58,388 nt of DNA from Brachyspira innocens ATCC 29796 (lineage in GTDB: Bacteria; Spirochaetota; Brachyspiria; Brachyspirales; Brachyspiraceae), in assembly GCF_000384655.1 (NCBI RefSeq), contig NZ_ARQI01000112.1, positions 1 through 58,388 on the forward strand. Direction: 5' to 3'. Position numbers and translations under genes: made by a program. This document shows, piece after piece, positions 3,106-56,370 of the stretch. Position 1 is the first letter of the stretch, and every line of letters starts with the position of its first letter. The notes under the pieces were generated by a model. That model had not been told where the DNA came from and did no database searches. It saw only the letters and a program-made list of their open reading frames with translations.

Positions 3106-3253
3106 TCAGTCATTCTTGTCTTTTGGTATATCAATGGTGCAAAGCGTAACAAAAGAAGTTGGGCAGATCAATCTATGTACTTTGTAATAGCAAAGCTCCA
3201 GATATAAAAATATAATTATATTTTTGACAAAATATAATTGTCTATGTATATAC
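3106..3253 (-). repeat. Dispersed intergenic element, degraded copy 1
   Basis: This stretch keeps pieces of the family described at 22728-23050: the GCAAAGC..CCAGATAT core edge and a right terminal repeat (TTGACAAAATATAATTG followed by TATATAC, 3224-3252). It runs in the opposite orientation to the best copy. The left end is not recognisable. Confidence 0.6.
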
Positions 3254-10125: not shown

Positions 10126-10371
10126 TATATACTAAAAATTTTTAAATTTGTAATTTTTTTTATTGTTCTTTTTCCCGCCGCAAAAAGAACCAAAAAGTGC
10201 AAGTATAAAAATAATACTAAATAGTACTAATTTATGTTTTACATGCTGTATAAATTGTATGTTTAATCTAGAAAATGCAGTCCTTTTGCTTCTTTGGGTC
10301 ACCAAAAGAAGTGGGGGTGTGGGGGCTAGTCCCCACAAATATAAATAAAATTAATTTTTAAACAAGTCTAG
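10126..10371 (-). repeat. Dispersed intergenic element, copy 2 (inside exporter operon)
   Basis: Begins with TATATACTAAAAATTTTTAA, then the hairpin TTCTTTTTCCCGCCGCAAAAAGAA, split here as TTCTTTTTCCCG and CCGCAAAAAGAAC, then a middle AT-rich arm, the GC-rich core (GTGGGGGTGTGGGGG) and a variant right end (AAACAAGTCTAG). It is the reverse complement of the arrangement at 22728-23050. It fills nearly all of the gap between the two exporter halves. Short reading frames inside it are not credible genes. Confidence 0.75.
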
Positions 10372-12105: not shown

Positions 12106-12490
12106 ATAATAGACTTGCTTCAAAAGTACTTTAAAATATTAACTTTAAAATTATTTAATCTTAAATTATAAAATACAATGTTTTATAATTTATTATTTTA
12201 GTATATACCTAAACAATTATAATTTGTCAAAAATTAATTTTTTAAATTTTGATATTTGCAGGGCTTTGCCCACCACTCTGTGTGCTATGCAGCACCACAG
12301 TTCTTTTGTGACGCTGTCCACCTTCGGTGTGGCACAGGCACAGCCCGCCTGCGGCGAGAACCAAAAAGACTGCATATTTATATACTAAAATGATAGTTTG
12401 TACAACATGTAAAACATCATATTTATAATTTTAAACATTAAATAATTTTATATTTAATGTTGTCAAGTAGTTTTGAAACAAGTATATTAT
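12106..12490 (+). repeat. Dispersed intergenic element, copy 3 with flanking partial copy
   Basis: A short partial element with a variant end (AGACTTGCTTCAAAAGTAC) precedes a fuller copy that begins at about 12203 (TATATACCTAAACAATTATA). The copy continues through the core (GGGCTTTGCCCACC, ATGCAGCACC, a GC-rich TTCGGTGTGGCACAGGC arm) to a right end near 12490 (TTGAAACAAGTATATT). This accounts for the gene-free interval 12093-12536. Confidence 0.75.
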
Positions 12491-12536: not shown

Positions 12537-13916
12537 TCACATATTTAAATATTTTTTTTCTGTTTCATAAGCAAGTTTATACATTTTCTCTTCATCAATA
12601 GAAGTAAGTTTTCCTTTTTCTGCTGCAACTTTTCCATTGACTATAGTATAATCAACAGTATTTTTCCAACCTATAGTACATAATATAGATTTAGGATCAA
12701 AATCAGCACCTACCATTTCTAAACGCCTCATATCTATCATAAATAAATCTCCAGCTTTTCCTACTTCCAAACTTCCTATATCATCACGTCCTAAAACTTC
12801 TGCCCCTCCTTTTGTTGCCATTTTTAATATATCATAAGCACTAGGAGCATTATTACTTGAGTTAAGTCTGTGAAGAAGATAGCATACTCTCATCTCTTCT
12901 AACATATTAGATCCGTCATTACTTGCACTACCATCAACAGCCAAACCTACAGGCACACCTAGTTTTAACATCTCTGGTATATTGCATACTCCAGAACTTA
13001 ATTTCATGTTGGATATAGGGCAATGTGCTACTCCAGTTTTTGTATCAGCTAAAAATTTTAATTCCTTTTCATTAAAATGAATACCATGTGCATACCAAAC
13101 ATCATTACCCACCCAGCCTAGAGATTCCATATATTCCAAAGGACGCATATTAAATTTTTCTTTTACATACACTTCTTCATCTTTAGTTTCGCATAAATGA
13201 GTATGGAGCCTTACTTTCAAATCTCTTGCTAGAATTGCAGATTGTTTTAATAATTCTTCGCTTACATTAAAAGGTGCACAAGGAGCTAATGCTACCATAT
13301 TCATAGAGTATTTTGAATTGTCATGATACTTTTCAACTACTCTTTGGCAGTCTTTTAAAATTACATCTAATGGCTGTACTACAGAGTCTGGCGGAAGCCC
13401 GCCGTCTTTTTTACTCAAATCCATACTTCCTCTTGAAGAATACATTCTTATACCCAAATCTTTAGCTGCTCTAAACTGAGAATCTATTATTCCTTCAGCA
13501 TTATTATTTGGAAATAAGTAATGATGGTCAAAACAAGTTGTGCATCCTGTTTTTAAAAGCTCTCCCATAGCAGTAATAGAACTGTAATATACTACTTCAC
13601 TATTTAAATTTTTCCAAATTTCATACAGATTGGTAAGCCATTCAAATAATTCCATATTCTGAACCTGAGGTAAATTTCTGCTGAATATTTGAAATAAATG
13701 ATGATGAGTATTAATAAGCCCCGGATATACAAAATAGCCTGAAGCATCAATTACCATGTCAGCATTTTTTTCTTTTATTAATATTTCCTTTTCTCCCATT
13801 TCTCCTATATATGTTATAACTCCGTTTTCTATTAGTATATTAGCTGAGTTATAAACAGTATCATTTTCTGAACAGGTAACTATAGAAGAAGCGTTTTTGA
13901 TAAAAATACTAGACAT
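12537..13916 (-). CDS. Amidohydrolase, 8-oxoguanine deaminase-like
   Basis: Cytoplasmic metal-dependent deaminase of the ATZ/TRZ-like amidohydrolase group, 459 residues. Metal ligands are visible: HHH at 71-73, HTHLCET (H240, E243), YAHGIH (H277) and VDGS (D328). The NTHHHLFQ motif and length resemble 8-oxoguanine deaminases, which convert 8-oxoguanine to urate; hydroxyatrazine-type hydrolases are the alternative. A strong GGAGGT precedes the ATG. A guanine-class riboswitch directly upstream supports a purine substrate. Confidence 0.82.
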   Translation of the reverse strand: MSSIFIKNASSIVTCSENDTVYNSANILIENGVITYIGEMGEKEILIKEKNADMVIDASGYFVYPGLINTHHHLFQIFSRNLPQVQNMELFEWLTNLYEIWKNLNSEVVYYSSITAMGELLKTGCTTCFDHHYLFPNNNAEGIIDSQFRAAKDLGIRMYSSRGSMDLSKKDGGLPPDSVVQPLDVILKDCQRVVEKYHDNSKYSMNMVALAPCAPFNVSEELLKQSAILARDLKVRLHTHLCETKDEEVYVKEKFNMRPLEYMESLGWVGNDVWYAHGIHFNEKELKFLADTKTGVAHCPISNMKLSSGVCNIPEMLKLGVPVGLAVDGSASNDGSNMLEEMRVCYLLHRLNSSNNAPSAYDILKMATKGGAEVLGRDDIGSLEVGKAGDLFMIDMRRLEMVGADFDPKSILCTIGWKNTVDYTIVNGKVAAEKGKLTSIDEEKMYKLAYETEKKYLNM

Positions 13917-13953
13917 ATATTATACCTCCGTTAACTAAAAAATAAGGCAAAAA

Positions 13954-14016
13954 ACTTATAGTCAATTATTGAGGTAATTGGTAGAAACGTTCAGCCTATT
14001 ATGAACTTATATAAGT
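13954..14016 (-). promoter_or_regulatory. Purine riboswitch, guanine class
   Basis: On the minus strand P1 is ACTTATA/TATAAGT, followed by TAA and P2 GTTCA/TGAAC. The invariant junction is GTTTCTACC, P3 is CAATT/AATTG, and the final junction is GACTATAAGT. The loops hold AGG and CCT for the kissing contact. The specificity base is C (position 74 in the usual numbering), which indicates guanine-type recognition. It lies 38 bases upstream of the deaminase gene. After P1, ATAAG can pair with CTTAT before six T residues, so ligand binding could prevent a weak terminator. Confidence 0.9.
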
Positions 14017-14096
14017 AAATAAATCGCCTAAAAGAAATTATAAAGTATTTTAATTTTATGTCAATTTATATAGAAGATATTATTTATATAATAAAA

Positions 14097-22592: not shown

Positions 22593-22727
22593 AATATATT
22601 TTTTCTTTACTTCCAGTCATTTATATTTAATGCTTAATTTTATTTATTTTTATCGCTTTAATAATTATACCCGACACAATAGTATTATTTAAATTTAATG
22701 TGCTAATTAACGCACGATTGACCTTTT

Positions 22728-23050
22728 ATACCTAAACAATTATAATTTGTCAAAAATTAATTTTTTAAATTTAAAATATTTGCGGGGATTCACAGTCGTG
22801 CCCGCTCTGCGTGCCTTCGGCAACCCCACTTCTTTTGTGACGCTGTCCGCCTTCAGTGTGCCACAAAGAAGTAGGCACAGCCCGCAGTCGTGAAAGGCTA
22901 CATTTTATGCTGAATTTAGCAATTTATCCTACATATAAAACATAATTAGTACTATTTAATAATAATTTCAACGCTTGCACTTTTTGGTTCTTTTTGCGGC
23001 GGGAAAAAGAACAATTAAAAATTGACAAACTTAAAAATTTTTAGTATATA
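22728..23050 (+). repeat. Dispersed intergenic element, best complete copy (copy 4)
   Basis: Left terminal repeat TATACCTAAACAATTATA then TTTGTCAAAAATTAATTTTT. Right end is AATTGACAAACTTAAAAA then TTTTTAGTATATA, the imperfect inverse of the left. Between them are the core (GCGGGGATTCACAG, CTGCGTGCCTTCGGC, TTCTTTTGTGACGCTG with its partner CACAAAGAAG), a central AT-rich arm, and a hairpin built on GGTTCTTTTTGCGG and CGGGAAAAAGAAC. No gene is inside. With the deoB terminator it fills the gap 22546-23221. ACGCACGAT (22710-22718) and its inverse ATCGTGCGT (23103-23111) flank it. Confidence 0.82.
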
Positions 23051-27928: not shown

Positions 27929-28204
27929 GTATATACTGCAAATTTTTAAGTTTGTCAAAAAATAAATTTTTTAATTTAAAATATCGCAGGGCTTTGCCCC
28001 ACACCCCAGTTCTTTTGTTGGCACAAAGAACCAAAAAGACTGCATTTTTAGCCTAAATTTCAGGATTACTATACATTTAATACATATATGTAAAATATAA
28101 AGTTCTAGCAATTGAATTTTTTTAAACTTTTTTGTGCTGCAAAAAAGTCGATAATTATGTATAATGTCCATCAATTGACAAAATAAAATTGTTCCAGTAT
28201 ATAT
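27929..28204 (+). repeat. Dispersed intergenic element, copy 5
   Basis: Left end GTATATACTGCAAATTTTTA then TTTGTCAAAAAATAA. Core GCAGGGCTTTGCCCCACACC, hairpin AGTTCTTTTGTTGG/CACAAAGAACC, AT-rich arm, hairpin AACTTTTTTGTGC/TGCAAAAAAGT, and right end AATTGACAAAATAAAATTG then GTATATATT. It lies between the oxidoreductase terminator and the rpoD terminator, in the gap 27807-28267. Confidence 0.82.
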
Positions 28205-36234: not shown

Positions 36235-36530
36235 TTATACCTAAACAACTATACTTTGTCAAAAAATAAAGTTATATTTTGTTTTTAATATCTGGGGCTT
36301 TGCCCCCGCTCTGCGTGCCTTCGGCAACCCCAGTTCTTTTATTGGTATAAAAGAACCAAAAAAACTGCATTTTTAGTCTAAATTTAGGTTATACCATACA
36401 TTTAATACATATATTTTTAATATAAAGTTCTAACAATTGCATTTTTTGCAACTTTTTTGTGCGGCAAAAAAGTTGATAATAATTATATAATGTGTAATAG
36501 TCGGCAAAATGAAATCGTTTCAGTATATAC
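36235..36530 (+). repeat. Dispersed intergenic element, copy 6
   Basis: Left end TTATACCTAAACAACTATAC then TTTGTCAAAAAATAA. Core GGGGCTTTGCCCCCGCTCTG, CTTCGGCAACCCC, hairpin AGTTCTTTTATTGG/ATAAAAGAACC, hairpin AACTTTTTTGTGC/GGCAAAAAAGTT, and right end GGCAAAATGAAATCG then TTTCAGTATATAC. Another partial end (CCAATTGTCAAAATATA) follows. Together with the remnant at 36603 it accounts for the gap 36183-36859. Confidence 0.82.
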
Positions 36531-49546: not shown

Positions 49547-49857
49547 ATATATACATAAACAACTATGATATGCTTGTTTCAAAACTATTTGACAAGGTTA
49601 TGTATTAAATTATCTAATTTTTTAAATTATGTTTTACATTTTGTATAATTTATCATTTTAATATATTAGGACCTTATCAACTGTGGTCTGTACCTGCTTC
49701 TTTGTGGAAACCCATACCTAACGGTACTTCCTACGGTCGCAAAAGAAGTTGGGTTTGGCACGACTGTGTGATTAGCAGCAAAGCCCAAACTATAATTAAA
49801 AAAATATTAAATTAAAAAACTATAAATATTAACAAATTGAGTTTTTAAACAAGTTAA
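49547..49857 (-). repeat. Dispersed intergenic element, copy 7
   Basis: Left end TATATACATAAACAACTATG begins directly on the T tail of the nan terminator. A second end-like sequence (CTTGTTTCAAAACTATTTGA) follows. The core has CTTCTTTGTGGAAACCC, a GGTACTTCC/TACGG arm, AAAAGAAGTTGGG and AGCAAAGCCC, and the right end is GAGTTTTTAAACAAGTTA. It is more divergent than copies 4-6. With the terminator it fills the gap 49488-49932. Confidence 0.7.
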
Positions 49858-54184: not shown

Positions 54185-54592
54185 CAATTATATAAAGCTA
54201 TGATTTGCTCTTTCGCCTCAGGCGTACTTTGTATGGTTCTTTGACGAAGTCCGCAGAGAGTATGCGACAGGAAAAATAACAACAAATTGAAAAATTTTAA
54301 GTATATACTAAAAATTCTTAAGTTTGTCAATTTTTTTTATTCAACTTTTTCCCGCCGCAAAAAGTTGCAAAAAGTGCAAGTTTTTTAACTTTATATATTT
54401 TGAATATGTATAAAATACAAGGTAACATCCATATTTTGTCTATACCTAAATGTGGGTTTATAAGATGCAGTTTTTTCGCCACAGGCGTACTTCGTATGGT
54501 TCTTTTATATTACGCCACGGGCGGACAGACGTCATAAAAGAACTAGGGTGCTGCATAGCACACAGCGTGGTGGGCAAAGCCCTGCAAATGTT
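54185..54592 (-). repeat. Dispersed intergenic element, copy 8, two nested partial copies
   Basis: A fragment (CGCCTCAGGCGTACTT, GTATGGTTCTTTGACG) ends near 54300. A fuller copy follows: TATATACTAAAAATTCTTAA then TTTGTCAA, hairpin CAACTTTTTCCCG/CCGCAAAAAGTTG, AT-rich arm, a second CGCCACAGGCGTACTTCG module, and the core GGGTGCTGCATAGCACAC then GGTGGGCAAAGCCC. The expected right end is missing. It fills most of the gap 54148-54631, and a spurious frame from it runs into the next gene. Confidence 0.75.
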
Positions 54593-54631
54593 AGAATAAA
54601 AAATTGTAATTACTATAATAAGGAAATTAAA

Positions 54632-55416: not shown

Positions 55417-56091
55417 ATGATAAGATGCAAAAATATATCAAAAATATATAAGACTAAAGATTATAATATAGCTGCAAATAAAAATATTAGTTTGGAGATA
55501 AAAGACGGAGAAATTGTTTGGGTTGCTGGAGTTTCTGGAGCTGGTAAAAGTACACTTCTTCACATACTATCAAGTATAGATATTCCTACAGAGGGGGCAG
55601 TTTATTGGAATGATAAAGAGGTTTCAAGATTGAGTGATAGAGAAAGAAGCAGTTTCAGACTTTTAAACATTGGGCTTATTTTACAGTCGCTTGAGCTATT
55701 AAAAACTCAGAGCGTATTTGATAATGTGGCACTTCCTCTTAAATTTTTAAATGAAAGTTCTTCTAATATAAATAAAAAAGTTAATGAAATATTAGAAAAC
55801 TTAAAAATAGATAATTTAAAAAAGAAAAAACCAGAACAGCTTTCAGGGGGACAGAAACAGAGAGTAGCCATAGCTAGAGCATTAGTAAGCGAAGCCCCTT
55901 ATATATTCGGCGATGAGATAAGTGCGAATTTAGATACTGATACGAGCAAGTTTATTTATGAATATATAAGAAACACTATAAAGAGAAGAAACGGCATAGG
56001 CTTTTTTATTTCGCATGATGAATTGATAGAGAATTATGCTGATACAAAATACATTATGAGAGATGGAGAGGTAACACTTAATATATACTGA
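55417..56091 (+). CDS. ABC transporter ATP-binding protein, LolD-like
   Basis: 224 residues. Walker A GVSGAGKST (~38-46), Q-loop LILQSLEL, signature LSGGQKQR, Walker B YIFGDEISANLD (GDE in place of ADE) and H-loop ISHDE. It belongs to the lipoprotein-release/MacB ATPase class. It starts two bases after the preceding gene. The matching permease is the next gene, but a dispersed element of about 270 bp separates them. Confidence 0.92.
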   Translation: MIRCKNISKIYKTKDYNIAANKNISLEIKDGEIVWVAGVSGAGKSTLLHILSSIDIPTEGAVYWNDKEVSRLSDRERSSFRLLNIGLILQSLELLKTQSVFDNVALPLKFLNESSSNINKKVNEILENLKIDNLKKKKPEQLSGGQKQRVAIARALVSEAPYIFGDEISANLDTDTSKFIYEYIRNTIKRRNGIGFFISHDELIENYADTKYIMRDGEVTLNIY

Positions 56092-56103
56092 AATGATTTT
56101 AGT

Positions 56104-56370
56104 TTATAAACATTAATGTTTTAATTTAAAATATTTGCATGGCTTTGCCCACCACGCTGTGTGCTATGCAGCACTCCAGTTCTTTTATTGATATAAAAGA
56201 ACCAAAAGAACTGCATTTTATAAAGTTGATATTTATGTTTTTATATATTCTTAATATATAAGGCTGCAGTACTTGCGTTTTTTGCAACTTTTTTGAGCGA
56301 CAAAAAAGTTGATGATACTTTGTATAAACATAATAGAAATTGATAAAATATAATTATTTATGTGTATATT
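56104..56370 (+). repeat. Dispersed intergenic element, copy 9 (between ATPase and permease)
   Basis: Degenerate left end, then AAAATATTTGCATGGCTTTG, CCACCACGCTGTGTGC, ATGCAGCACTCC, hairpin AGTTCTTTTATTG/ATAAAAGAACC, hairpin AACTTTTTTGAGC/GACAAAAAAGTT, and right end AATTGATAAAATATAATTA then TGTGTATATT. It occupies nearly the whole gap 56092-56400. Confidence 0.78.

Follow-up and report, generated by a model that had tools for sequence, protein, structure and literature searches.

Many of the dispersed intergenic repeats of Brachyspira are accounted for by a MITE, and they very probably represent two nested layers of parasitic DNA, the IS630-derived MITE itself and a population of far smaller double-hairpin elements (DHEs). 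The window analyzed here, a stretch of 58,388 nucleotides from Brachyspira innocens ATCC 29796, has a GC content of 28% and belongs to a genome of 3.28 Mb in 130 contigs. The relatives retrieved for comparison via one gene of the window include B. hampsonii 30446, B. alvinipulli and Brachyspira sp. G79 (G024).

A preliminary description of the window had listed nine related, dispersed blocks that form a repeat family with inverted ends. Related DNA is present at all nine places, and the family is genus-wide, with elements of 250–380 bp whose ends of ~27 bp read TATACCTAAACAA..TTTGTCAA and TATACTGAAAATTTTTAAGTTTGTCAA. The elements are non-coding, small, multicopy, and present or absent between relatives. 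A profile of the ends yielded 129 matches of at least 8 bits in 904 kb of Brachyspira DNA versus 6 in a Markov control. Inward-facing matches form 46 pairs, 45 of which are spaced by 186–411 bp; the remaining pair, 1056 bp apart, is the IS described below. The copy at 22727 has at least 62 matches within its own genome and is matched in 23 of 25 Brachyspira genomes (its own counted, and G006 weakly), in a census that was drawn from genome stretches and searches yielding lower bounds. The search of Brachyspira genomes did not find this MITE in the basal species G010 and G021. Outside Brachyspira, other genera of spirochaetes gave short AT-rich matches to the end region, which were discarded as noise. 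The MITE ends can also be read outward, e.g., at 23022–23050 of the window, where TTGACA is followed by 17 bp and TATATA, a possible outward promoter carried by each insertion.

The block limits originally proposed hold in part. The best copy (TATAC...GTATA), recognized by its end pair, spans 22727–23048 (+) and measures 322 bp including the TA duplications at 22727–22728 and 23047–23048. Further copies lie at 36236–36527 (+, 292 bp), at 56083–56368 (+, with a degenerate left end) and at 27932–28201 (-, 270 bp), the latter in a basal form whose hairpin loops contain no DHE. The stretch 54185–54600 consists of two elements, namely part of a MITE copy at 54185–54304 (+) in tandem with a copy that abuts it at 54304–54600 (-, right limit approximate). 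The copy at 10128–10350 (-) is an older one, common to G017 and G022, with a degenerate right end and an approximate limit, and that at 3106–3252 (-) is truncated, with one recognizable end near 3250 when read on the - strand. The block at 12106–12490 (+) is composite: its outer ends (GACTTGCTTC..) are of another type, and a TATACC end lies inside it at 12204. A related copy with the second end type occupies 49551–49800 (-, approximate limits). The different end pair (GACTTGCTTC.. / ..GAAACAAGT) bounds some composite copies, as in the window at 12106–12165, 12431–12490 and 49551–49600 and at L067:10500, and is possibly a third mobile family. Other MITE-like elements, with unrelated interiors rich in longer hairpins and in some cases with TATAC ends, were observed at L217, L218, L059:14808–15081 and L256/L273.

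A comparison of related genomes reveals presence/absence of the blocks. Those at 12106, 22728, 36235 and 54185 are each empty in some related species, and a TA duplication is demonstrated at two of these four sites. In G019, a complete genome that is 95% identical in the neighbouring gene, the empty site reads CCTTT-TA-TACAAAATAA; the corresponding sequence of the window is CCTTT-TA-[TACCTAAAC...TTTTTAGTA]-TA-TACAAAATAA. At 36236, G016 and G003 lack the copy and have the sequence AAAT-TA-TACTAG. Taking the element ends as symmetric (TAC..GTA), the target duplication at both sites is TA; a TATA duplication with an element of the form C..G predicts two extra bases in the empty site and is contradicted by the empty sites. 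The stretch 12106–12490 is absent from G017, and 54185–54600 from G022. Some loci consist of two or three elements arranged end to end, one within the terminal TATATA of another, and G017 holds a second end-to-end copy at the 22727 site. New copies would thus often insert in the TATATA that ends an older copy, with end-to-end chains as the outcome.

An IS630-family element with the ends of the MITE exists in Brachyspira. A search for a transposase gene bounded by these ends, as had been suggested, found one that is full-length though decayed in G024. The IS630 model detected it below the model cut-off; nothing above the cut-off was found in any Brachyspira genome searched, and NF033545 exceeded its cut-off only in G038, a genome of another family, which was set aside. 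The decayed gene sits in a unit of ~1.06 kb (L101:1047–2106) that is bounded by the two MITE ends, TATACTGAAAATTTTTAAGTTTATCAA on the left and TATACCTAAACAACTATGATTTATCAA on the right, and a fragment of the broken gene matches DDE_3 with an E-value of 2.6e-7. A DNA search with this unit revealed matches of 85–89% identity to its first or last ~65–190 bases in G014, G011, G020 and G002. Where checked, these matches lie at contig ends, with differing flanks, TATATAC junctions and the open ORF start ATGGATTTTAATTTAACAGACGAAG. An IS present in many copies would show this pattern if a short-read assembler had merged the copies. The element is thus probably intact in some Brachyspira species, as judged from the assembled sequences, although none of the Brachyspira assemblies searched contains an intact IS630 gene. 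The interior of the MITE is unrelated to the IS past the first ~40–50 bp. Together, the shared ends, the TA duplication and the empty sites identify the blocks as an IS630-derived MITE, and they bear out the original reading of a non-autonomous, MITE-like family. The blocks were probably mobilised by an IS630-type transposase, and the MITE family thereby gains a probable parent IS. The transposase of this Tc1/mariner-like IS would cut the MITE and paste it into TA targets, a cut-and-paste chemistry taken from the IS630 family.

Two other readings of the blocks were considered. That the ends belong to another, unseen transposase, with the match to the IS630 relic reflecting capture, agrees with the lack of an intact IS in any assembly. 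This is highly improbable: in the relic and at the contig ends of four other genomes alike, each end of the IS agrees with its MITE counterpart over ~27 bp and in the correct orientation, and a TA target is a hallmark of the IS630 family. A structured RNA or regulatory element retained for the host had been named as an alternative from the outset. The strand does fold better than its shuffles (z of -2.94) and the stems covary, but the blocks are present or absent between close relatives, form tandem chains, are absent from basal species and have no conserved position beside the same genes across most species in the regions compared. In an Rfam search of the window the blocks had no match; the sole family above its gathering cut-off lies elsewhere, a purine riboswitch aptamer (RF00167, 50.4 bits) at 13939–14034 (-), upstream of the gene at 12537–13916. 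With no Rfam match and with empty sites among relatives, retention for the host is very unlikely.

The IS630-derived MITE varies from copy to copy by discrete GC-rich inserts within or beside its hairpins. The GC-rich core and the modular differences first described are both present, and most of these differences turn out to be a second class of tiny inserts that had been overlooked; the core itself is a GGGCTTTGCCC-type hairpin with variable inserted double hairpins. Each DHE is composed of two adjacent mini-hairpins, a stem-loop-stem directly followed by another, with stems of 3–4 bp and loops of 3–4 nt, for a total length of 18–22 nt; forms of ~24 and ~31 nt also occur. Examples are GAC(GAA)GTC CGC(AGA)GCG, CGC(TCT)GCG TGCC(GTA)GGCA and GAC(GCT)GTC CACC(TTC)GGTG. 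At four fixed places of the MITE, the spacer either has its basal length (2–3, 7 or 8 nt) or exceeds it by approximately 17–20, 24 or 31 nt; a few half inserts of 9 nt and some larger, nested insertions were also seen. Within the MITE, DHEs occupy the loops of hairpins and their flanks; one DHE can sit inside another, and both orientations are found. DHE targets are mostly beside A/T runs or at hairpin tips, where a few target bases are lost or gained, and no regular target duplication was found at the insertion sites.

In the 22727 copy, the GC core contains the DHE CGC(TCT)GCG TGCC(TTC)GGCA (22803–22822, +), the loop of hairpin 1 (TTCTTTT..AAAGAA) holds one beginning GAC(GCT)GTC with an imperfect second stem (22839–22860, +), and a third, beginning GGC(ACA)GCC, lies beside hairpin 1 (22874–22893, +). 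CGC(TCT)GCG TGCC(TTC)GGCA recurs at 36307–36326 (+). The composite element at 12106 carries CAC(TCT)GTG TGCT..AGCA (12274–12294, +), GAC(GCT)GTC CACC(TTC)GGTG (12310–12329, +) and GGC(ACA)GCC CGCC(TGC)GGCG (12337–12356, +). Further cases are a double-hairpin insert of ~25 nt at 49714–49739, GAC(GAA)GTC.. at 54243, and the DHEs at 54552–54569 and 56153–56173.

A scan for strict double hairpins with a GC content of at least 0.55 gave 57 in 904 kb versus 4 in the Markov control. Other controls gave 41 (direct repeats, GC 0.55) and 9 (complement), and the shuffle comparison by itself would therefore overstate the case. Selection by the loop alone provides a cleaner test, and it reveals covarying stems: at NNC-GAA-GNN, both outer pairs are formed in 74 of 151 non-coding occurrences (49%) versus 20 of 437 coding ones (4.6%), the five main stem types being CGC, TAC, GGC, GAC and TGC. 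With 14 loops, pairing amounts to 30.2% in non-coding and 6.3% in coding DNA. Applied with ten loops to 0.4 Mb of G021, a genome that lacks the element, the test gave 6.1%, which corresponds to chance. One DHE type has 43 matches (22+21) in the genome of the window (G000) and 41 in G013. A search for the same type found none in G010, G021, G012 and G018 and 0–3 in other genera, and its backward-pattern control had no match in any Brachyspira genome.

DHEs are also present or absent by themselves, both inside and outside the MITE. In the 10126 MITE copy, common to the window and G022, the window reads GCAGTCCTT-TT-GCTTCTTTGGG and a DHE of ~20 nt replaces TT in G022. A second dispersed palindromic family of ~105 bp has GACGCTGTCCGCCTTTGGCG at its apex in G023 versus GA in G003, G022 and G024. 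Because G003 is the sister of G023 and G022 lies outside in the tree, this reads as a gain in G023; the tree is built from one gene and many of its forks are weak, but these two are supported. The core of this second family is ATATAGCAAAT..ATTTGCTATAT, e.g., at L072:6573–6688, and close-packed copies occur in G017 and G023. Neither G017 nor the genome of the window has the ~105 bp repeat at the orthologous site.

Prophage genes harbor DHEs as well. One prophage gene of G017 contains an in-frame nested DHE of 39 nt and an in-frame DHE of 21 nt, both of which are missing from the IMG/VR ortholog. Among the large terminase genes of 13 Brachyspira prophages, three read AAATC-TAA[CGCCAAAGGCGGACTTCGTC]AAAATAATG, with a 21-nt in-frame insert, and the other ten, including the most divergent, read AAATC-AA-AAAATAATG or a close variant. 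One prophage terminase (L416 / L495) has a further in-frame insertion of ~81 nt with a CTGCCGATT..AATCGGCAG hairpin. An all-against-all comparison of 13 prophage segments revealed 43 distinct insertion sites of 12–30 nt. Strict double hairpins make up 15 of the 20 insertions with a GC content of at least 0.5, against 0.49 expected from shuffled inserts, and none of the 23 AT-rich ones; 12 of the 20 GC-rich insertions are exactly 21 nt long. With carriers left unmerged, the counts are 18/24 for GC-rich and 1/46 for AT-rich insertions. Other phage contigs, taken as a control with little data, gave 0/3. Matches to the DHE pattern in GC-rich, unrelated phage contigs (L398–L407) were attributed to chance. 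When compared with the DHEs of the data set, prophage DHEs are rarely exact copies, their best matches having a mean of 3.6 mismatches versus 5.4 for structure-matched random sequences.

How these inserts spread can be read in several ways. If the modules were immobile, old MITE parts would have been swapped between copies by gene conversion and the basal forms would be deletions. In many copies a DHE does occupy an identical place in the MITE, and the G017 copy at 10126 resembles a conversion patch. However, similar inserts with clean flanks occur in a different repeat, others lie inside prophage genes that lack homology to the MITE, and the DHE type CGCTCTGCG TGCC is found in several unrelated contexts. 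Gene conversion is contradicted at the prophage sites, and we regard it as improbable overall, although part of the variation inside the MITE could still be explained by it. A somewhat better case, though still an unlikely one, can be made for DHEs produced locally, e.g., by template switching or snap-back synthesis at A/T runs, and not copied from elsewhere. The lack of a regular target duplication agrees with this, as do stems that differ among most inserts and prophage inserts that are seldom close to known DHEs; given the rarity of exact copies, some DHEs may indeed arise in this way. Against local generation, the inserts have fewer mismatches to existing DHEs than do random sequences of matched structure; in some species, such as that of the window (22+21), one DHE type has been amplified, and it has no match in G021, G010, G012 and G018; and sizes cluster at 21 nt, though in genes the reading frame may select that length.

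We consider it reasonably likely that a live population of ~21-nt DHEs exists in Brachyspira and its phages, spread by a structure-recognizing process and rewriting protein genes in frame. These elements would insert in MITE hairpins, in other DHEs, in the second palindromic repeat and in prophage genes. As the stem sequence varies while the structure is kept, the copying process would recognize or regenerate the hairpin structure rather than the sequence, with stems drifting under compensation.

The MITE is new for Brachyspira, though of a known type. IS630/Tc1-mariner-derived MITEs known to us, such as Nezha of cyanobacteria, are likewise short and non-coding, with IS630-family ends and a TA duplication. 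The present family differs from these in its host genus, an interior unlike that of the IS, the DHE inserts in its hairpins and the frequent end-to-end chains.

For the DHEs, the closest parallels come from organelles. The mitochondrial double-hairpin or repetitive hairpin-forming elements described in PMC2800124 and the references in it also comprise two adjacent hairpins, lack a regular target duplication and insert in tandem or in clusters, in genes and spacers. DHEs differ from them in their bacterial and prophage hosts and their small size (18–22 nt), and their stems vary while loops recur, whereas the sponge mitochondrial elements are presented in that source with conserved stems and variable loops. 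The same paper, on sponge mitochondrial hairpins, reports that others have proposed an RNA intermediate for the fungal double hairpins on account of the missing duplications (PMC2800124), and by analogy such an intermediate may apply to DHEs too. DHEs are analogous to these elements; neither membership nor common descent is claimed. The small dispersed repeats (SDR) of cyanobacteria (Elhai 2008, as cited in PMC3116915) are very small mobile repeats of bacterial genomes and resemble DHEs in size, a likeness by description that does not imply relatedness. REP and REPIN sequences with their RAYT transposases, also treated there (PMC3116915), are small palindromic bacterial mobile DNA as well, but DHE stems measure 3–4 bp only, and no GTAG/CGTC tag was seen in the inserts read. 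Like DHEs, the Rickettsia palindromic elements place palindromic DNA in frame in protein genes; DHEs are far smaller (7–13 codons) and follow a double-hairpin formula. The preliminary description knew of no published account, and the open-licence literature yielded none of such elements in Brachyspira.

To our knowledge, mobile double hairpins were until now an oddity of organelle genomes without an explanation, and their mechanism is difficult to study there. The DHE layer matters more than the MITE layer. DHEs reside in bacteria that can be cultured and can be traced at many sites, where closely related phages and host genomes have both empty and filled versions. The way in which hairpins this small move thereby becomes open to direct testing. 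DHEs also extend phage proteins by in-frame peptide segments and leave their mark on the indel pattern of AT-rich genomes, and few mobile DNA units known in bacteria would be smaller.
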